DNA of 30,789 nucleotides from a virus (IMGVR_UViG_3300035145_000326:1-30789), one strand, 5' to 3'; counted from the first letter of the stretch, positions 1,958 to 27,473 are shown. Notes: generated by a model from the sequence alone, not told the origin. Program-made: numbers and translations.

Positions 1958-3075
1958 CGATTAAGTACGGGAAGGTAAACTGACCCATTTCTAACAGCAG
2001 GTTCCATTCTAGGTCCAGCTCTAAAAGTGTCAATTCCAAAATTAGCAAGATCTGCTAAATTACCAACAGCTGGGATATTACCGGCAACTGCTAACTTAGC
2101 TTGTACAACATCAGCAGGGTCTTTAGTTTTTGCTGCTTTAGCTGTACGTCTTGCTGCGTCCTCAATACCAAACGCAACTCCAACAACTGGAAGGGCTGAG
2201 TACAAAGATCTAGCACCTACCAAACGGTTAGGGAAGGACAATTTCATTGACCCTCCAACTAATTTTGGTTTAACAAGCTCTTGGTAACTACCAGTAATTG
2301 CTGGTTCAATAGCAGGACTACGTGCAATTTTACGCATTTCTGCAATTTCTGCCTGTGTATTATCAGGCATATAAGCACGTTCTAGTCCTGGAATCCGCCG
2401 CACTGCCTGCACACGAGGTGCATCTGTAGCCTTACCAACTTCAAAATCTGCAAGCTGAGGACCGATGCGTGCGTCAAGAGCTTCAAACAAAGCTTTTTCG
2501 TTAGAAATTTCAGCAGGTGTAAGGTCACTAGCGTACCCTGCTGTACCAAATCTATGAGCAGTAGTACTTGCGTCAGGGTTTTTACCGATACCAGAAGCAC
2601 GTTCTAGACCAGTTGCTTTGTCGTCAGCTTTGTGTGCAAAGTTAGATAGTGCTGTATCACCACGGATAACACCTTTTTCACCTGTAGCTTGACCAAACCT
2701 CATACCATATTTGTCTTGCAAACGCTGAATAGCGCCGCGAACAACATCTCCCTCAGCTCTTGCCAAGGTGCTACCACCTGTCCGTTGTTGAACTAGGTGG
2801 TGAATAGTATCATCAGCAAGCAATTCCCACGCCTTCATGGTGCTCATTTCCATGCGGCGGATAGCGTTTGTTAGTTTTTTAGCATCTCCACCAGCGGCTT
2901 CAATAGCTTCAGGGTAAGCTTGAGGATCAAGGTCCAGGTTGCTTACCGCTTTTCTAACTTTTTTGAGTAGTGACGGTTCACGACCTGTGGCTTTACGTTG
3001 TACAATCAGATCGTCTTCTAAACCAACCAACAACTCTCTAGCATAGTCATGCAACTGGGCTAGTTCTTTATCCAT
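1954..3075 (-). CDS. Unknown 373 aa protein with an IHH...RTGG motif, between HNH nuclease and large terminase
   Basis: No function can be assigned with confidence. The N-terminal third (residues 1-125) looks helical and charged and contains DDTIHHLVQQRTGGSTL at residues 88-104, with further histidines at 148 and 174. The C-terminal part has two hydrophobic small-residue stretches (about 291-305 and 325-350) in a context like LPVVGVAFGIEDAARR and IPAVGNLADLANFG, which could touch membrane or form a helical hairpin. The adjacent-histidine motif with a following Arg/Gly recalls HH-type HNH/Endo VII-fold nuclease and toxin families, but that is inference from a short motif. The gene overlaps HNH by TAATG and terL by ATGA, so it is expressed with the packaging genes. 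It could also be an ejected or virion protein. Confidence 0.85.
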   Translation of the reverse strand: MDKELAQLHDYARELLVGLEDDLIVQRKATGREPSLLKKVRKAVSNLDLDPQAYPEAIEAAGGDAKKLTNAIRRMEMSTMKAWELLADDTIHHLVQQRTGGSTLARAEGDVVRGAIQRLQDKYGMRFGQATGEKGVIRGDTALSNFAHKADDKATGLERASGIGKNPDASTTAHRFGTAGYASDLTPAEISNEKALFEALDARIGPQLADFEVGKATDAPRVQAVRRIPGLERAYMPDNTQAEIAEMRKIARSPAIEPAITGSYQELVKPKLVGGSMKLSFPNRLVGARSLYSALPVVGVAFGIEDAARRTAKAAKTKDPADVVQAKLAVAGNIPAVGNLADLANFGIDTFRAGPRMEPAVRNGSVYLPVLNR

Positions 3076-3404
3076 TAAGCAATGTGCTCCAATAAAACTT
3101 TTTCACGGAGCCTATTGACTCCAAATCTTGCCCTCATCCATTCAAGGACGTGGGCACTTCCTTTCTCCTGATTACAACGGGTACAGGCACATACGACATT
3201 CGTTGCGACATCCTGACCCCCACGAGACCTAGGATGAACATGATCGATAGATAACTGACTAAGGTCATAAGTTTTTCCGCAATAAATACATGTATGGTCA
3301 AAGTGTTCCTTAATAGAGCGCCTCCACAGGCGCTTGGCTTCTGGAGAGGTCATAGCTATTAAGTTAAAAAGATAGTCGTCAGGAGTTGGAAGAAGGGGAG
3401 TCAT
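3075..3404 (-). CDS. HNH endonuclease
   Basis: This 109 aa protein is one compact HNH domain. It has a zinc knuckle CIYC (C39, C42) paired with CTRC (C74, C77), the catalytic DH at 54-55 inside SIDHVHPRSRGGQ, a conserved N69, and the closing CNQEKG. HNH proteins use one divalent metal to nick or cut DNA. In many tailed phages an HNH protein sits beside the terminase genes and assists packaging cleavage, as shown for HK97 gp74. The position between TerS and TerL suggests that role here more than a free-standing homing endonuclease, though homing cannot be excluded. The start overlaps the upstream stop as ATGA and the end overlaps the next start as TAATG. Confidence 0.93.
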   Translation of the reverse strand: MTPLLPTPDDYLFNLIAMTSPEAKRLWRRSIKEHFDHTCIYCGKTYDLSQLSIDHVHPRSRGGQDVATNVVCACTRCNQEKGSAHVLEWMRARFGVNRLREKVLLEHIA

Positions 3405-6030: not shown

Positions 6031-9000
6031 TTAGCGTGCGCGGGCGGTTTTGAAGGGATTTTCAGCAAAGGCCATATATATGTATTCGTTACCAGTTTGG
6101 TTTGCCAAGCCACCGGCATATCGCAGCTTGAAGCCATTGCTTAAAAAGTCCACTACGTTGGATGTGCTTTCGGCTGAAGTGGAACTAGGATACAAGTATT
6201 TTTCTGCTGTGTTAAATGTATCTCTTGTTGAGTCAAGCATGATCCAATCGCCGGTTGTGTCGTACCGCTTCAAGATCAAAAATGCTGGACGGAAACCTGT
6301 ATGTACAAAGGGGCCATCTGTGCTTGAATTTCCGGCATATTCTCCAAACGCGCTATAGCCTTCGACAGGTGCAAAGCAGTAGGCGATGTAGGTAGTACTG
6401 TTTGTGTTGTAATTACTGTAAGTTTGAACTGTCAAGGTTGATGAACTGACACCAAAAGTATTAGCAACATTTACCTGTGCGCCTGTAGTGTCAAGCCAAA
6501 GGTAATTGTCATCACCCAAAGACTTATGGTACGTTAGCCAATTACCACTGGCGCTACGGCTTTTAAATAGGACAAATTCTGGCGTAGCATTTAATCCGTG
6601 GCCTATTGTTGTACCAGCCGTTCCATTTCCTGTATAACTAACAATCGAGAACCCAGCCGTTTGATCGGCGCGGACTACAGAATTGACTGATGGGACGTTG
6701 GGAGGGGTTCTATTGTCGTTGACAAGTAACTTGCCATTAACACTTACACCCGCAAACCAATGGTTGCCAGCACCATGGAAAGAAAATCTAGTAATCGATG
6801 TTTCGTTTAGGTTGAGCTTCACTGCTGCGATGTAAGCACCTCCACCAGGGACCTGACCAACCGCGTGAACAATAGTTTGTTGATATAAATTATATTGCGT
6901 GCCGTTTTGATTAAGCTTGACCCACCAGTCAGTGCTTCCAGAGTAATAGCAATAAACAATTACCTCGGTGACGCCACTGGCAAACTGAATCTCAGGAAAG
7001 ACAACCTCGCCGGTAAAACTAGACAAGTTGTTGTTATCTAGGTATCCATTAAAAGCGAGTGGTAGGTTAGTTAGACCAGCAGTAGCAGAAGACGGAACAG
7101 CATAAGCGTTATCACTCCAGCGTTCGTCTTGGTTGTAAACAGAACTATTCAGGCTGCCAGACAACACTGTTGCTCCAGCTGTGCTGTTCGTATTAACCTG
7201 CCCACCCATTCCGCTGTGAACTGAGCAGTAGTAATACAGGGTTGGCGCACTAGCAGCAACAACAATCGTTGTCTTTGCTCCTGCACTGCCAGGCGTTCCA
7301 GTTGTCGTTACACCTGTGGTGTATTCACTGCCGCTGCCATGCGTTCCATCAGACGTAGTGGAGAACCGCAGGGGGTGACCTGAGTTGCTGCTATCCGACT
7401 GGTCAAAGACGTAAGTGCTGCCCTCCTCAAGATCAAGCGTGACCGCACTGGTGCCATGATCATCAAAACGATATTTATTGCCACTATCGCTAACAACTTT
7501 GACGGTGTAGGTTTTGCTGCTGTTTGCTCCGGCGTCCCAAGTCCAGCCAACGTATGTGCCGCCACTTGCGTTAACACCCCCAAATGTTCCAAGAGTTACG
7601 CCATCGCTTGTGAAGGCTTTTACATTCTGCGAAGCAACCGTTTCAACATAAGTATCATTCGGATAAATAGTATTTGTAGCTCCACGAACTGTGTCTGTAA
7701 TGTTATGCCAGTCAGTACCATTATCGCGACGTTTTACCCATATCATGTCTGGGGAAAACTTAAATCCAGTCAGAGTGTTTTCAGCACCCGTTCCGGACCA
7801 AGTTTTAACATCAAAGTAATCCGAACCATCGGCAATCAGCGGGTCGTCAAGGTTCTGCGTGCAGAGTGACTTGAAGCCGGTTGGTGGCGTGTAGGCGAAG
7901 GGGCGTTGGCCGAAGTTGACACTCTGAGATGTAGTTTGAGACCCTCCCGACTGGTGCCCAACAAAAGGCATCAATCCATCACTTGTCGTAATACCGGAGT
8001 GTATCGGGTTAGTGCCTGCAGCGGGGTCTCCAGAAGACAACCATGTACCACTTTGATCTGTTGCCCAAAACTTACCAGTTGACGCATCAAAAGCAAAACC
8101 AAACGTTCCTGTTCGTGTAAGACCACTTTGTGAAATGGTAGTGAATGATCCGTTTGTGAAGGAGTAGTAATTATTATTATCTACAATAATCCCCCAAGAG
8201 GTAGAGTCGCCCCATACGCTGTTATTACCAGGAGACAGTGGCGTAGCAACTCCTGTGCTAGCGTTAGCACCGGTATTAGTTACAACAGTAACTTCAAAAT
8301 ACCAAAGCCCAGACGATGCTGCAATCGTAGCAAAAGAATTATTATAAAGTGATGAACCACTTGCATCAACATCTAAATTACCATTTGAGAGTGTTAATGA
8401 AGACCCTGCATTTAACGGATTCAACGTCGCGTAGTTACCACCGTTGTTACCGCTATCGGCTTCGTAGTTGGTTGGGGAGTCGAGAAGAGAATCACATCCA
8501 CTATTAACTGGATCTCCTAAACTGTTGTCAATTAAATAAGTGACGTTTGACGGAGCATTGTACGAATCTGGCGGACTTGTTGCAATAACAACGGAATACC
8601 AGCGTGGATACTGACCTGAATATGCAACAGTGTCTCTGTACCTAAAAGCAGAAAAAATACGATCACCATTTGCTTCTGCCGTAGGCAATGCAGAAGTTAC
8701 GTCAGTCCAATAATTAGTGGTAGCACTCATATTGGATGAACTTACCGCAACCTCTGTCCCATCAGTGCCGTTGGCATCAGTAAATCGGAAGAATCGATTA
8801 TTGTTATTGGTAGTCTTGTAATAAATGGCAAAGTAAAGGTTGTAGCCTGAAGGAACAGTAATGTTTGACCCTGGAGTCCACGTAATTGTGTCGGCGTTAC
8901 CAGCACCAGAACTAGACCATGTAGTTCCTAGAAAATCAGTATTTGCATCAAAAGCATTAACAACATTGCTTAATGTATAGCCACCTGCGCTAGTGACTGT

Positions 9001-9780
9001 CCCCAGAGCATCGATTTTCTGGAAAGGGGTGTACTCAGTGTGGTCAAGATTATTAACTGTCCAGTTATTCGAGCCAGCCGCATCGTATCCAAGCGCAGCG
9101 TTGCTGCTGTTGTCGGAGAAGTCGAGGTGGAAGCCGTTAGTACCGTATGATCCAGAGTATTTAATCGGACTCCAAACACCAGTGTCTTCGTCAAATTCAC
9201 CGAATGATGTGGGGTCTAAACTTTGACCATCAACATGGTGAATGTCAGCATAGTACAAATTGCTATATGTGCTACCACGCCAATTACCAATTTGATGATT
9301 AACATTATTATTGACAGCAAGGTTGGCGTTTTGGGTTGGGTAGCTTGTGGCTGTATTTACAAGCTGCTCGCCATTCCAATACAAACGAATTCTGTCTGCC
9401 TGAGCAGCAAGTGTTGTATCGACGCGAATAACTAGGTGCCCCCAGGCACTTGGATCTCGTAATTTAGCTGCTGATATAAAGTAGTAAGTGCTGTAATCAG
9501 TAATGTGGAGATCTCCACCGGTGTACCATACTTCAAAAGTATCTGAAATAGTACCGCCGCTACCAGGATATGGACACTCAAAAATTCCTGAGTTTCCAGT
9601 TACGTCTGCAAATTTTATCCAAGCCGAAAAAGTCCATTGTTGCCTATTACCAGCACTAGAAAAATTTTTACTGAGATATGCCGAATCTGCTGAGTTAAAC
9701 CTTAAGCTGCGTTCAATCGTGTAACCAGCAGCGCCGCCAGAACCGGCGGCACCTGCTAAAACATTATTATATACTACCAT
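6031..9780 (-). CDS. Giant multidomain adhesin / tail fibre with lectin-like, SPRY-like and cupredoxin-like domains
   Basis: At 1249 aa this is the second largest protein in the window. Residues about 15-250 look like a LamG/concanavalin-type jelly roll (WTFSAWIKFAD, LRDPSAWGHLVIRVD, RIRLYWNGEQL, YYADIHHVDGQSLDPTSFGEF). Residues about 480-590 resemble a SPRY fold (SSGLWYFEVTVV, GTFGFAFDASTGKFWA). Residues 655-745 have a GFKFSPDMIWVKRRDNGTDW unit, which returns in variant form near the C-terminus (about 1040-1249, ending YIYMAFAENPFKTARAR). Residues about 752-862 look like a cupredoxin, with H802, C852, H855 and M858. Such proteins bind host surface glycans; this one lies after the gp17-like fibre and before a chaperone-like gene, so I infer a receptor-binding appendage. 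Whether it is in the virion needs proteomics. Confidence 0.88.
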   Translation of the reverse strand: MVVYNNVLAGAAGSGGAAGYTIERSLRFNSADSAYLSKNFSSAGNRQQWTFSAWIKFADVTGNSGIFECPYPGSGGTISDTFEVWYTGGDLHITDYSTYYFISAAKLRDPSAWGHLVIRVDTTLAAQADRIRLYWNGEQLVNTATSYPTQNANLAVNNNVNHQIGNWRGSTYSNLYYADIHHVDGQSLDPTSFGEFDEDTGVWSPIKYSGSYGTNGFHLDFSDNSSNAALGYDAAGSNNWTVNNLDHTEYTPFQKIDALGTVTSAGGYTLSNVVNAFDANTDFLGTTWSSSGAGNADTITWTPGSNITVPSGYNLYFAIYYKTTNNNNRFFRFTDANGTDGTEVAVSSSNMSATTNYWTDVTSALPTAEANGDRIFSAFRYRDTVAYSGQYPRWYSVVIATSPPDSYNAPSNVTYLIDNSLGDPVNSGCDSLLDSPTNYEADSGNNGGNYATLNPLNAGSSLTLSNGNLDVDASGSSLYNNSFATIAASSGLWYFEVTVVTNTGANASTGVATPLSPGNNSVWGDSTSWGIIVDNNNYYSFTNGSFTTISQSGLTRTGTFGFAFDASTGKFWATDQSGTWLSSGDPAAGTNPIHSGITTSDGLMPFVGHQSGGSQTTSQSVNFGQRPFAYTPPTGFKSLCTQNLDDPLIADGSDYFDVKTWSGTGAENTLTGFKFSPDMIWVKRRDNGTDWHNITDTVRGATNTIYPNDTYVETVASQNVKAFTSDGVTLGTFGGVNASGGTYVGWTWDAGANSSKTYTVKVVSDSGNKYRFDDHGTSAVTLDLEEGSTYVFDQSDSSNSGHPLRFSTTSDGTHGSGSEYTTGVTTTGTPGSAGAKTTIVVAASAPTLYYYCSVHSGMGGQVNTNSTAGATVLSGSLNSSVYNQDERWSDNAYAVPSSATAGLTNLPLAFNGYLDNNNLSSFTGEVVFPEIQFASGVTEVIVYCYYSGSTDWWVKLNQNGTQYNLYQQTIVHAVGQVPGGGAYIAAVKLNLNETSITRFSFHGAGNHWFAGVSVNGKLLVNDNRTPPNVPSVNSVVRADQTAGFSIVSYTGNGTAGTTIGHGLNATPEFVLFKSRSASGNWLTYHKSLGDDNYLWLDTTGAQVNVANTFGVSSSTLTVQTYSNYNTNSTTYIAYCFAPVEGYSAFGEYAGNSSTDGPFVHTGFRPAFLILKRYDTTGDWIMLDSTRDTFNTAEKYLYPSSTSAESTSNVVDFLSNGFKLRYAGGLANQTGNEYIYMAFAENPFKTARAR

Positions 9781-9782
9781 AA

Positions 9783-10415
9783 TCAGCTATAAGCAAGTGT
9801 GACAACAGCGTGGATTGAAGTACTGCTGCGAACGATGTAATCTACGCGATCAATACCTGCTGCGGTAGTTGTTAGTACCGGCGCGGTGCCGCCAGCAAAG
9901 TCCCAATAAGAACCCCACGCGGCTGTACGGCTACCAGTGCCATCTTGCACAAGGAAGATAGAACCTGATTGACCAGCAGTGCAGTTAGAGGGGTTAGCAA
10001 TAGTTAGGTTTTCACCAAGTGTCAACGTAAAGTTGTTAGAGTCATTGAAGTCAGGTGTCACAGTTGCACCAGAGGTAAGCGTAGTGATTTCACCGCGTTG
10101 TGCTGCAGTAAAGGTTTGAGCAGTGTCAGTCTTTGCAGTGTCAGCATCAAAAGCTTGGATAGTAGATCCAATGTCGGCAATGCTTGCACCCGCAGGAATA
10201 GTGACAGTGCCAGTAAAAGTAGGAGAAGCAATGTCAGCTTTAGCCGATACATCAGCTTGTGTAGAAACAAGGCTGCCGCCCTCTTTTACATACAGTTTGT
10301 CTTGGTCGGTTGCGTAGCAAATTTCACCCTCTTGAATATCAGAAACAGAGGAGTTAAGGTTAGTATAGGTACCGCGAGCAATGCGGATAGGTGTACGATT
10401 AGCTGGGGTTGGCAT
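9783..10415 (-). CDS. Fibre-associated structural protein with Mtd-like N-terminus (210 aa)
   Basis: The N-terminus PIRIARGTYTNLNSSVSDIQ, followed by EGEICYATDQDKLYVKEGG, is the repeat seen at the start of many trimeric phage fibres and of the Bordetella phage tropism protein Mtd (R-x-x-R-x-T...L-x-x-G-E-I-x-x-x-T-D...L-x-V-x-x-G). A PTFTGTVTIPAG segment typical of fibre shafts follows, then a beta-rich C-terminus with GSYWDFAGGTAPVL and VDYIVRSSTSIHAVVTL. It probably forms a short trimeric fibre or a connector between the gp17-like fibre and the large adhesin. The start overlaps the fibre stop as TAATG and only 2 nt separate it from the adhesin gene. I see no variable-repeat or reverse-transcriptase system here. 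Confidence 0.75.
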   Translation of the reverse strand: MPTPANRTPIRIARGTYTNLNSSVSDIQEGEICYATDQDKLYVKEGGSLVSTQADVSAKADIASPTFTGTVTIPAGASIADIGSTIQAFDADTAKTDTAQTFTAAQRGEITTLTSGATVTPDFNDSNNFTLTLGENLTIANPSNCTAGQSGSIFLVQDGTGSRTAAWGSYWDFAGGTAPVLTTTAAGIDRVDYIVRSSTSIHAVVTLAYS

Positions 10416-13093
10416 TAGAATGATCCTCCGTCGATAGTTGTAGAGTTAGATACAAGAGATGTTCCGCTGGCAAAGTTACCACCGTCAACAGTTAGCGCAC
10501 TGGTAAGTGCATCAACATACGCTTTAGTAGCAGCATGAAGGTTAGAAGTAGGTGCACCTGCAAGTGTAAGATCACCAGTCATTGTACCGCCAGCCAGGGC
10601 AAGTTTACCGGCAAGGTTGTTAGTAACAGTAGTTGAGAAGTTTGCATCATCTCCCAAAGCAGCAGCCAACTCGTTAAGAGTGTCAAGTGCAGCAGGGGCA
10701 GAGTTAACAACGTTAGCTACTTCAGTATCGACATAGTTCTTAGTTGCAGCGTCTTGTGCAGCAGTCGGATCACCAATGTTGGTAACCTTATTTGTCAGTC
10801 CGTCCAGATTTCCACCAAGTTGTGGTGTTTGGTCAGACAGCAGGTTAAAGGCAATGGAGCCTTCAGGAATTGTAACAAAACCAGCCTCTTGATCAACTTC
10901 AAAAAACGGGTCATCAGTTTGATTACCGCCAATCTTAAACTTACCATTATGGTCAGTTGTAGCAGTCCAGATTTTACCACCGTTGCTTTCGGTAATCTGT
11001 TTTGTTTCATCGGGCACACCGCCATTTTCAGGCAGGGCGTTGTAGTTAGTACCTGAACCAACGTACTCCATAGTGTGACCACTAGAAGCAATTTGAGATC
11101 TCAGGAAAAATGATACAGTATCATCATCCACAAGACCACCATTCAATCCCAGGTTATTGCTTCGATTAGAAGGGTCAGGACGGCTGATTTTAACAGTCCA
11201 TCCGTTACCGCCTTCGGTGTCAGTACGAGCTGTAGCTGACAAGATAGGGTAAGTAACATTGTTAACAGTAACAAGCATGTTACTAGCAGGGCGGTTTGTA
11301 TCACCAAACCATCCTGTACCAGTAGTAGGTTCGTTAATGTTAAAGGTGAGGTCACCGGAAGATGCAGTACCGTCAGTGTTAGACGTAAAGATTGCAGTAG
11401 TAGATTTACCGTCAGCAATTAATGCCCGCTCACCAAAGTCAGTTGTAGATGCAGCCAGGTTGGCTTGACCACCATTTAGACATTTGATGTGGTACTTATT
11501 AAAGAATGCATAGCTGCTAGTAGCCTGCACATAACCGTTGTTAGTAACAAGAATACCAGGGCCATTTAGACCAACGTGAGTATAGCTGTCGCAAACAATC
11601 GAGCGCAATGGGCTAGTAACTGCTGGTACAGAACCATCAATCAAAAGACCGCCACCAGTCGGTGCAGAGTCAGTATCACCTGCAGAACCACCAGCAGGGT
11701 TAATTACATTGATGTCACTGTTGTCAATCTCAGAATCAGAGAAATTAGTACAGTTCTGGATGTACGGAGATTTGGTAATCGTACAGTTAGGGTAGAACGC
11801 AACGTTCCAACCTTGAGAAGTAGGTAGTGCAGGATCAGCACCATTACCAGTACCTGTACCAGCTTTCATGCCAGTAAAGGTTAGGTTCTGCAAGAATGTA
11901 CCGCTGTTAACACGGAACATAACGCTAGTCTCTGTACCTACAGTAGGATGAATAATACAGCTACGAAGGGCAGTACCTACAATAGAAACGTTAGCACGGG
12001 TAATATCAATCGGACATACCTCTTGATACGTACCAGGTGCAACTACAACAACACTACCATCACCATAAGTGTTGTCAGAGTTGATTTGGTTTACAGCAGC
12101 TTTAATCGATGCTTTAGGACGGCTAATGCGGTGACCATCGTTGCTATCGCTACCTGATGTTGCGTCAACATAGACAACCTTAGGTTGGTTGGTAAACGTA
12201 CCACCAGACGTAATAGCTTGCCAGGCATTACCATCCCAAACAGACAACGTTTTATCGTCTGCAATATCTACCCAGACACGACCTTTACCAATACCAGTGG
12301 TACTAGGCTGATCGTTTTGGACAAAGTTTTCAAAGCGACGGATAGCTGCAACAGAGGTAAAGACACTATCATCAGAACCGCCACCAGAATAGGCAGCTTC
12401 CTGGTCAGCTAATTTAACTTTATCAGTATCTTTAATCTTATCAAGATCAACACTGTTGTCAGCGATGCCTAGCGTAATAGTACCGTCACCATCATCAGTA
12501 ACAGTAATACCAGTACCATCAGTGCCAATATCACCAGTAATAGCAGCGTCAATTTTACTATCAACTCGATCGTCAATAGCTTCTGCAGAGGCAAGTTTAG
12601 TGTCATCACTGACCCAGGTGTCACCATCATACAGCGTTTGATCGAATCTATTCCAATAGTAATTCTCTAAGTAAGTGTAAAGTTCATCAGGAACGTCTTG
12701 ACAATTAGCTTCCTGAATAGCATATCTAACTTGCTCAAAGTTCTTATTAAGGTCATCTGACCGGATAGCTGAGCCAGGGTTAAACAAGGCACGGATGTCG
12801 TCAACCTTAGTGATCCGTCGGATCTTAACGTTGTCAACAGCAGTCTCTCCTGGAACAGTGGGGGTGGCTGGAGACGGTGGCGCACTACCAGTAAACTCTA
12901 CAATAGTAGGGTTAGCATCAGTAATGCGCCAGGGGTAGGTGGCATCTGTCGTAAGTTTTTCGTCGTATTCTTTTGTAACCGCGTTCCAAAAATAAACGTG
13001 GATTTCAGATTTAAAAATGTACGGGAAGTCAAAAGAGAATTGTGTCTTTGTCCCGTTTCCAGCTTGAATTGTTTGTACGTCAGTGCACGCCAT
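10415..13093 (-). CDS. Tail fibre protein, T7 gp17-like N-terminus with beta-helix body
   Basis: The first 150 residues match the T7 gp17 N-terminal attachment domain in pattern (YTG-type start replaced by GNGTKTQFSFDFPYIF, then VKIRRIT, LFNPGSAIRSDDLNKNFEQ and VRYAIQEA), which docks the fibre to the tail. A WVSDDTKLASAEAIDDRVDS linker follows. From about residue 300 there is a right-handed beta-helix region of the pectate-lyase type (VYVDATSGSDSNDGH, VVVVAPGTYQEVCPIDI, then repeated short strands with Asn and Gly) to about residue 700. The end (about 750-892) has shaft repeats such as NLDGLTNKVTNIGDPTAAQD and AATKAYVD. At 892 aa it is longer than T7 gp17 (553 aa) because of the helix. It is probably the main receptor-binding fibre or the base that carries the next two proteins. 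Confidence 0.9.
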   Translation of the reverse strand: MACTDVQTIQAGNGTKTQFSFDFPYIFKSEIHVYFWNAVTKEYDEKLTTDATYPWRITDANPTIVEFTGSAPPSPATPTVPGETAVDNVKIRRITKVDDIRALFNPGSAIRSDDLNKNFEQVRYAIQEANCQDVPDELYTYLENYYWNRFDQTLYDGDTWVSDDTKLASAEAIDDRVDSKIDAAITGDIGTDGTGITVTDDGDGTITLGIADNSVDLDKIKDTDKVKLADQEAAYSGGGSDDSVFTSVAAIRRFENFVQNDQPSTTGIGKGRVWVDIADDKTLSVWDGNAWQAITSGGTFTNQPKVVYVDATSGSDSNDGHRISRPKASIKAAVNQINSDNTYGDGSVVVVAPGTYQEVCPIDITRANVSIVGTALRSCIIHPTVGTETSVMFRVNSGTFLQNLTFTGMKAGTGTGNGADPALPTSQGWNVAFYPNCTITKSPYIQNCTNFSDSEIDNSDINVINPAGGSAGDTDSAPTGGGLLIDGSVPAVTSPLRSIVCDSYTHVGLNGPGILVTNNGYVQATSSYAFFNKYHIKCLNGGQANLAASTTDFGERALIADGKSTTAIFTSNTDGTASSGDLTFNINEPTTGTGWFGDTNRPASNMLVTVNNVTYPILSATARTDTEGGNGWTVKISRPDPSNRSNNLGLNGGLVDDDTVSFFLRSQIASSGHTMEYVGSGTNYNALPENGGVPDETKQITESNGGKIWTATTDHNGKFKIGGNQTDDPFFEVDQEAGFVTIPEGSIAFNLLSDQTPQLGGNLDGLTNKVTNIGDPTAAQDAATKNYVDTEVANVVNSAPAALDTLNELAAALGDDANFSTTVTNNLAGKLALAGGTMTGDLTLAGAPTSNLHAATKAYVDALTSALTVDGGNFASGTSLVSNSTTIDGGSF

Positions 13094-26008: not shown

Positions 26009-27088
26009 TTAGCCGATTGCAGGAGCTTGCAGAGCCACAGGAGTAGTGGAAGCAGAAGCAAGATCCAGCGGGAAGTTGTGAGCATTACGCTCGTGCATAA
26101 CTTCAAAACCGAGGTTAGCACGGTTGAGAATATCAGCCCATGTGTTCACCACATGACCTTGACTCTCAGTAATGGATTGATTGAAGTTGAACCCGTTAAG
26201 GTTGAATGCCATGGTGCTGACGCCGAGGGCGGCAAACCAGATTCCAACGACGGGCCATGCTGCGAGGAAGAAATGCAGCGAGCGAGAATTGTTAAAAGAT
26301 GCATACTGGAAAATCAGTCGTCCAAAATATCCATGCGCTGCAACGATGTTGTAGGTCTCTTCCTCTTGACCAAACTTATAACCATAGTTCTGTGAGACCT
26401 CTTCAGTCGTTTCCCGGATGAGCGAAGAAGTAACCAGACTACCATGCATAGCACTAAACAAAGCGCCACCGAAGACGCCAGCAACTCCCAACATATGGAA
26501 AGGGTGCATAAGGATATTATGTTCAGCTTGGAAAACCAGCATGTAGTTGAACGTACCGCTGATGCCGAGCGGCATACCGTCAGAGAAAGAACCCTGACCA
26601 AACGGGTAAACGAGAAATACCGCCGTCGCTGCGGCGACCGGAGCAGAATAAGCAACAAAGATCCAGGGCCTCATCCCTAATCGATAACTAAGTTCCCATT
26701 CGCGTCCCATGTAAGAAAAGACACCAATGAGGAAGTGGAAAACGACGAGCTGATATGGACCCCCATTGTAGAGCCATTCATCAAGTGTATTAGCTTCCCA
26801 AATTGGGTAGAAGTGTAGTCCGATGGCATTGCTGCTCGGAACGACGGCTCCCGATATGATGTTGTTTCCATACATAAGGGAGCCTGAAACTGGTTCACGG
26901 ATTCCATCGATATCAACGGGTGGCGCTGCGACGAACGCCGTAATAAAACAAATAGTAGCGGCGAGAAGGCACGGAATCATCAAGATGCCAAACCAGCCAA
27001 CGTATAAACGGTTGTTAGTGGACGTTACCCACGCACAAAAATCTTCCCACGACGATTGTTGGCGAGAAGAAATTACAGAAGCTGCCAT
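26009..27088 (-). CDS. psbA: Photosystem II reaction centre protein D1
   Basis: The complete 359 aa D1 protein, the fast-turnover core subunit of photosystem II in the thylakoid. All key residues are in place by D1 numbering: Tyr161 and His190 (redox-active pair); Asp170, Glu189, His332, Glu333, Asp342 and Ala344 (Mn-Ca cluster); His198 (P680); His215 and His272 (non-haem iron); and Ser264 (QB pocket). Residue 130 is Glu, the form linked to the high-light D1 type. The C-terminal extension after Ala344 ([13 protein letters not shown]) is normal for processing by CtpA. There is no intron and no frame damage. Cyanophages express D1 to keep host photosynthesis running during infection. It follows the beta-barrel gene by 43 nt, and no clear Shine-Dalgarno precedes it. 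Confidence 0.99.
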
Positions 27089-27131: not shown

Positions 27132-27473
27132 TTAGAAGTTATACTTAGCGCCGACCTTAGTGCCGTAGCCGTTGTCATCTTCACCAGTGATGAAGGAAAC
27201 TTCACCATAGACAGACAGTGCATCGCTCACACTGTAAGAACCACCTGCCTTACCAGACAGCTGGACATCACCGTCTTCACCATCAGGTGCCAGCAGAGCA
27301 GGACCACCCTGCACGTACCAGTTAGCACCTTCGTAACCGACGTGAACATCGGTAGCAGAGCCACCGTAATCAGAGCCAACAAAACCAGAGTTGACTTCGA
27401 TGTTTGCGTAGGGACCAGCAATAGCGCCTTGAGCACAGCCGAGGAGGAAACCGGCAGCAATAATAGATTTCAT
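27132..27473 (-). CDS. Short exported beta-barrel-like (porin-like) protein
   Basis: A 113 aa protein with a signal peptide (MKSIIAAGFLLGCAQGAIAG, cleavage likely near residue 19). The mature part alternates polar and hydrophobic residues in about six strands (YANIEVNSGFVG, TDVHVGYEGANWYVQGG, LSGKAGGSYSV, LSVYGEVSFITG, YGTKVGAKYNF) and ends in phenylalanine, the usual outer-membrane sorting signal. It is shorter than common 8-strand barrels such as OmpX (about 148 aa mature), so a full barrel would need oligomers or be partial. I recall similar proteins in other cyanophages and their hosts. Its place between hli and psbA makes it part of the host-takeover cassette. An outer-membrane role is inferred. 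Confidence 0.85.
   Translation of the reverse strand: MKSIIAAGFLLGCAQGAIAGPYANIEVNSGFVGSDYGGSATDVHVGYEGANWYVQGGPALLAPDGEDGDVQLSGKAGGSYSVSDALSVYGEVSFITGEDDNGYGTKVGAKYNF

Follow-up and report, generated by a model that had tools for sequence, protein, structure and literature searches.

Cupredoxins are known both as electron carriers and as domains of enzymes. In plastocyanin, azurin and amicyanin, Asn usually stands right after the first His ligand of the copper, and in multicopper oxidases the first ligand is part of a His-Pro pair. Metals on phage tails have been discussed for iron, in connection with the iron-binding HxH motifs of tail fibres such as T4 gp37, on which the Trojan Horse idea builds, and iron on a marine phage tail protein has been proposed to be relevant to attachment and metal cycling (PMC11705849). 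A cupredoxin in phage tails was undescribed in the open-access papers searched, and for cupredoxin together with cyanophage the open-access literature gave only unrelated work on Borg elements. Here, we focus on a candidate type-1 copper site in a predicted tail adhesin, including its fold, the conservation and loss of its ligands, and its distribution in marine phages and cells.

The window, that is, the whole stretch of viral DNA analysed, comprises 30,789 b and encodes a T7-type terminase, a nozzle protein, an internal virion protein and a head-tail adaptor; it is part of a T7-like marine cyanophage. The gene under study encodes a 1249-aa protein that is predicted to be located in the virion from its gene position and from the names of its families. 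Its parts, together with a tail fibre gene nearby, are as follows:

6031..9780, minus strand: gene of the predicted tail adhesin (1249 aa), an ATG-start open frame; PHROG virion structural and tail fibre families; DUF7483
9277..9660, minus strand: LamG / concanavalin-like domain, residues 41-168; PF13385, 33.5 bits against a cut-off of 27.6
7927..8304, minus strand: SPRY-like stretch, residues 493-618; PF00622, 24.5 bits, just below the cut-off of 26.3
7528..7830, minus strand: first part of DUF7483, residues 651-751; PF24299 profile positions 1-105, E 1.3e-27
7186..7512, minus strand: predicted cupredoxin domain, residues 757-865; AlphaFold2 pLDDT 85.6; top PDB matches type-1 copper domains, Z 10.1; profile of relatives reaches plastocyanin and amicyanin
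6691..7185, minus strand: remainder of the insertion, residues 866-1030; low-confidence linker and second beta-rich stretch, pLDDT mostly 32-56; lacking in HTVC202P gp51 and SS120-1 gp29
6055..6690, minus strand: second part of DUF7483, residues 1031-1242; PF24299 profile positions 115-330, E 7e-77
10415..13093, minus strand: T7-type tail fibre gene, two genes upstream of the adhesin; PF03906, 34 bits against a cut-off of 25.2

PF03906 (the T7 gp17 N-terminal domain) was absent from the 1249-aa protein itself in the Pfam profile search, and an NCBIfam search of this protein gave no match. The original prediction had placed the copper domain between a SPRY-like part and glycan-binding parts. 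This architecture holds in so far as a LamG domain is present, at the N-terminus, but the SPRY match falls just under its cut-off, and the part C-terminal to the module is the second half of DUF7483; the insertion of the module within DUF7483 had not been foreseen. Several other frames in the window were also observed. Directly before the adhesin comes a 210-aa protein (9783-10415, minus) whose similarity to the N-terminal domain of Mtd (major tropism determinant) is weak and falls below the cut-off (E 0.0029). A 109-aa frame near the terminase gene (3075-3404, minus) resembles HNH endonucleases, with CxxC and SIDHVHPRSRGG. By eye, a 359-aa psbA-like frame (photosystem II D1; 26009-27088, minus) lies amid the structural genes, and adjoining it is a 113-aa frame (27132-27473, minus) with a signal-peptide-like start and a C-terminal stretch like that of an outer-membrane beta-barrel.

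The four predicted ligands of the window copy, and their conservation among the copies collected in this study, are given below:

7375..7377, minus strand: H802 (in SGHPLRFS), predicted first copper ligand; conserved in 212/218 full-coverage copies
7225..7227, minus strand: C852 (in YYYCSVHSGMGG), predicted thiolate ligand; conserved in 212/218 full-coverage copies
7216..7218, minus strand: H855 (in YYYCSVHSGMGG), predicted second His ligand; 212/218, and retained in 1/6 of the copies missing the others
7207..7209, minus strand: M858 (in YYYCSVHSGMGG), predicted axial ligand; Met in 210/212 His/Cys/His copies, Leu once and Gln once

The open frame and all four positions had been predicted exactly, and the pattern C-x(2-5)-H-x(2-5)-M has a single match in the whole 1249-aa protein. 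The claim of a type-1 copper ligand set with amicyanin spacing likewise held on comparison with the sequence of PDB 1aac, to which the amicyanin query was identical: amicyanin DYHCTPHPFMRG has the same C-x2-H-x2-M spacing as the window copy, in which the distance from the first His to the Cys is 50. An extra His of the DGTHG loop, H814 (7339-7341, minus), is retained in 91% of the loop-bearing copies.

The assignment to the cupredoxins was borne out by structure prediction and fold search, and residues 757-865 almost certainly adopt this fold. AlphaFold2, supplied with residues 745-870 and 32 homologues, returned a model with a pLDDT of 85.6 and a pTM of 0.81. In the Foldseek and VIA searches the best solved match was 2dv6, the three-domain nitrite reductase of Hyphomicrobium (Z 10.1, rmsd 2.8, 102 aligned residues), and these searches gave small laccases (Z about 9) and rusticyanin (Z 8.7) among the other top solved matches; in a separate 610-residue model, the cupredoxin region matched the same type-1 copper domains at Z 9.2. 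In the model, H802 stands immediately before a strand, C852 closes the penultimate strand, and H855 and M858 lie in the loop leading to the last strand, a modelled placing like that of the ligands in cupredoxins. The fold match and this topology suggest that the four ligand side chains converge at one site. Giant viruses of Pithovirus- and Marseillevirus-like type also have small beta-sandwich proteins whose fold matches that of the model.

The fold searches also bear on whether the domain is an immunoglobulin-like decoration in which a Cys-His-Met motif arose by chance. One cyanophage relative bears the annotation PF07686 (Ig V-set), and antibody chains, together with Factor VIII, appear in the searches. 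The antibody chains, however, are among the weak matches and rank under the copper proteins, which make up nearly all the top structure matches; moreover, sequence profiles reach plastocyanin, and the motif is conserved, with His/Cys/His/Met in 210/225 copies. On these grounds the immunoglobulin-like reading, which has next to no chance of being right, was dropped in favour of a cupredoxin.

Kinship to copper proteins can also be traced at the level of sequence, most clearly when divergent copies are combined. Searching the PDB with the single window-domain sequence gave nothing useful (weak matches to toxin repeats, E 0.4 or worse), and a profile of closer relatives gave nothing better than E 0.5. 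A profile of 15 divergent copies reached plastocyanins (1.3e-4), copper nitrite reductase (3.6e-4) and amicyanins (5e-4); its top match, the designed repeat protein Pizza6, was dismissed since that match rests on the strand repeat. Profile-profile comparison by hhalign aligned the module with plastocyanin at 83% (E 9.5e-6), with the Cys and His aligned, and with amicyanin at 40% (E 2.9e-4), and the protein's own DUF7483 part, taken as a negative control, scored 0.1% probability. Against the Pfam Copper-bind profile (PF00127) the window copy reached 13.5 bits (E 0.1), under the cut-off of 21.2, whereas a relative from Woeseiaceae scored 25.1 bits, above it. The family is thus close, and the window copy itself is no member of PF00127. 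Within the explanation that we prefer, the module is a divergent branch related to the plastocyanin/azurin family.

Whether the ligands are maintained was followed in several samples. Both His and the Cys were present in 100% and the Met in 99% of a first set of 94 distinct domains. The full set comprised 225 distinct copies from phages, bacteria and archaea, seven of them with partial coverage and ligands not fully scorable; 210 had His/Cys/His/Met, and in two the Met alone was changed, to Leu and to Gln. A value of 100% for His/Cys/His in the intact subset follows by construction, so the informative figures are the 212 of 218 full-coverage copies retaining these three residues, and a sample retrieved independently of the ligands. 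The latter was obtained with a 60-aa query holding no ligand, from 80 loci, and in its approximately 86 genuine copies the Cys and both His were present in all, with Leu for Met in one. Ascertainment bias from motif-containing search patterns was thereby ruled out as the cause of the conservation, and the free variation of Cys, His and Met among homologues considered in the original prediction was not seen. Even where identity falls to 35-40%, no positions are better conserved than His, Cys, His and Met. The steps from Cys to His and from His to Met are three residues in 210/210 intact copies, while the distance from the first His to the Cys varies from 41 to 65, and the motif therefore goes beyond chance. 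The first His is followed by Pro in about 95% of the intact copies, and in the 6vox alignment the His-Pro of multicopper oxidases is visible alongside the module.

The six full-coverage copies that lack the site are equally instructive. In all six the first His and the Cys are gone and several fold residues remain, and the second His is retained in one. Copies without the site occur mostly in the gp7 baseplate proteins of cyanomyoviruses and in a small protein of PSS2 type with its relatives; others are the second copies within long structural proteins. We read the joint loss of the first His and the Cys, with fold residues kept, as the mark of a single metal site, retained or given up as a whole. 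In a tree, viral and cellular copies are intermixed and the site-less copies fall into more than one group, the alignment having too few columns for deep order. Two kinds of site-less copy may be described further. In the gp7-type baseplate genes of cyanomyoviruses (L290, L311, L312), a ligand-bearing copy is followed by a ligand-less copy in one protein; gp080 of cyanophage PSS2 (L294, 3992-4330) and its relatives (L298-L301) are small, consist almost purely of the cupredoxin fold, and are without the first His and the Cys.

Since the baseplate gp7 and PSS2 gp080 copies indicate that the scaffold alone is usable, the module could in principle be a metal-free relic in which ligand residues were inherited without function. 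This is very improbable, in view of the fixed spacing, the ligands being the most conserved positions even among distant copies, and the lack of drift in the ligand-free sample. The suggestion that the domain had lost its metal is likewise unsupported for the window copy, whose ligands are intact; it describes the gp7 and gp080 copies instead. From the ligand pattern, we consider that the module probably contains a functional metal site. The metal is, with somewhat less assurance, likely to be copper. Cys with two His and Met is typical of copper rather than zinc. Pro in place of Asn after the first His, although multicopper oxidases also have His-Pro, and the score of the window copy under the PF00127 cut-off count against the copper explanation preferred here.

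The main rival retains the fold and the ligands and takes the metal, zinc or a copper without other role, as merely a structural staple stabilising an exposed module in seawater. The joint retention and loss of the ligands would fit any metal site, and the module occupies spacer-like positions in long fibres and in cadherin- or collagen-like proteins. For zinc, however, the ligand set is not the typical one, and copies without the first His and the Cys keep their fold residues, which argues that the fold does not need the metal. We regard such a staple as having roughly one chance in a few, which places it ahead of the other alternatives.

The module is mobile in the sense that closely related adhesins exist without it. 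Gp51 of the Pelagibacter phage HTVC202P and gp29 of the cyanophage SS120-1 match the sequence on either side, but their flanks are separated by about 5 residues in the former and by none in the latter, and whole-genome searches found no copy of the module in either phage. Since these flanks are nearly contiguous, residues ~753-1030 of the window protein represent an insertion between the two DUF7483 parts. It starts with the cupredoxin (757-865), which is followed by a linker modelled with low confidence and by another beta-rich stretch; in the relatives L007 and L018 the cupredoxin alone occupies this site. In other proteins, of about 120 to 2685 aa, the module is N-terminal, internal or C-terminal; they include a T7-type fibre with PF03906 (L089) in which it lies near the C-terminus. 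In a small phage-type family, phrog_28581 (L175 from 2758, L173, L174), the module is C-terminal; L175 has N-terminal CxxC pairs resembling a zinc ribbon, followed by two module copies.

The suspicion that this is a widespread, undescribed module of marine phage proteins agrees with the survey. In a tblastn search with a consensus-like query, 328 phage records matched at E 0.05 or better; almost all belong to phages of Synechococcus and Prochlorococcus, together with some of Pelagibacter and Methylophilales, and no description of the module appeared in the open-access papers searched. Cultured carriers include Synechococcus phage S-B68, Pelagibacter phage HTVC028P and cyanophage S-TIM5. With the window sequence as query, 24 phage records were found at 1e-5; scans of IMG/VR gave at least 600 matches, and plasmids gave no match. 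Cellular carriers include SAR86, Woeseiaceae, Porticoccaceae, Bacteroidota and Marine Group II archaea; some of the carrier contigs are 0.46 and 1.06 Mb long, so these copies are cellular. Several cellular copies adjoin cadherin, Ig or collagen-like repeats, in proteins that include exported ones and archaeal collagen-like lipoproteins, and a Bacteroidota genome (L324) encodes a 134-aa stand-alone cupredoxin, apparently exported, with the same layout as the module. Some match at E 1e-8 was present in 33 of 61 SAR86-family genomes. Many genomes of this family encode a conserved protein of ~636 aa in which a divergent domain copy is present (L322, 740-2584).

Taken as a whole, our preferred explanation, to which we give a probability of about 55%, is that the module is a genuine cupredoxin with an intact type-1 copper site that serves as a mobile adhesin module, is loaded with copper after release and has a role in attachment. 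In the window protein it is plugged into the linker between the two DUF7483 parts, and in relatives other tail proteins carry it at other places. The domain would be made metal-free in the host cytoplasm, where free copper is vanishingly low, so that loading is expected after lysis, with copper picked up on release of the virion. The resulting metal-locked, surface-exposed module may help the virion to engage or hold marine cell surfaces. Taken by itself, the attachment role is tentative. That unrelated marine microbes have the module in their surface proteins speaks for a part in contact or adhesion at surfaces, and the sister phages without the module indicate an accessory rather than a part needed for assembly; against this, several copies are N-terminal or mid-chain and give no pointer to direct receptor contact.

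A more active role for the metal has also been considered, in which the copper centre swaps electrons at the host surface and so senses the state of the host or of the light, or triggers a step of infection. The ligand set and the exposed C-terminal loop are as in electron-transfer cupredoxins, and the axial Leu and Gln seen in some copies are variants known from redox proteins. However, neither a partner protein nor a second centre was seen, carriers of the module include phages whose hosts are not photosynthetic as well as collagen-like lipoproteins of archaea, and in many proteins the copies lie far from the fibre tips. For this last reason a redox trigger is less likely than a structural staple, and on balance it is improbable. 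Doubtful, though somewhat less so, is the broader proposal that the tails of many marine phages bear true type-1 copper centres, which take up their metal from seawater or lysate after release and serve as a ligand or redox switch for recognition of, or commitment to, the host surface; if it were true, phages would be an additional particulate copper-binding pool in the ocean.

What the preferred explanation brings into view is an apparently intact type-1 copper site used as a mobile building block of predicted virion tail proteins, for which the baseplate copies without the first His and the Cys provide natural negative controls. If copper is bound, the discussion of metals in phage tails and in attachment would gain a second metal, and copper would seem to be involved in the contact of marine phages with their hosts and in the cycling of trace metals. 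Compared with the plastocyanin/azurin family (PF00127, including amicyanin), the module shares the beta-sandwich, the His followed by Cys-x2-His-x2-Met in the last loop, and a profile match; it differs in having His-Pro instead of His-Asn, in a long conserved Gly/Thr-rich loop ahead of the Cys strand, in the window copy falling under the Pfam cut-off, and in being inserted in tail and surface proteins rather than acting as a free electron carrier. The N-terminal domain of 2dv6 and the small laccases are the best structural matches; there too the cupredoxin is built into a larger protein, and His-Pro at the first ligand is as in multicopper oxidases, but no type-2 or type-3 copper partner domain was seen for the module, and identity is about 12-19%. 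The HxH fibres resemble it in placing a metal, predicted in the case of the module, on a marine phage tail protein; they share no motif with it, and theirs are paired-His iron sites in fibre trimers (PMC11705849), whereas the module forms a domain of its own in which a copper site is predicted.
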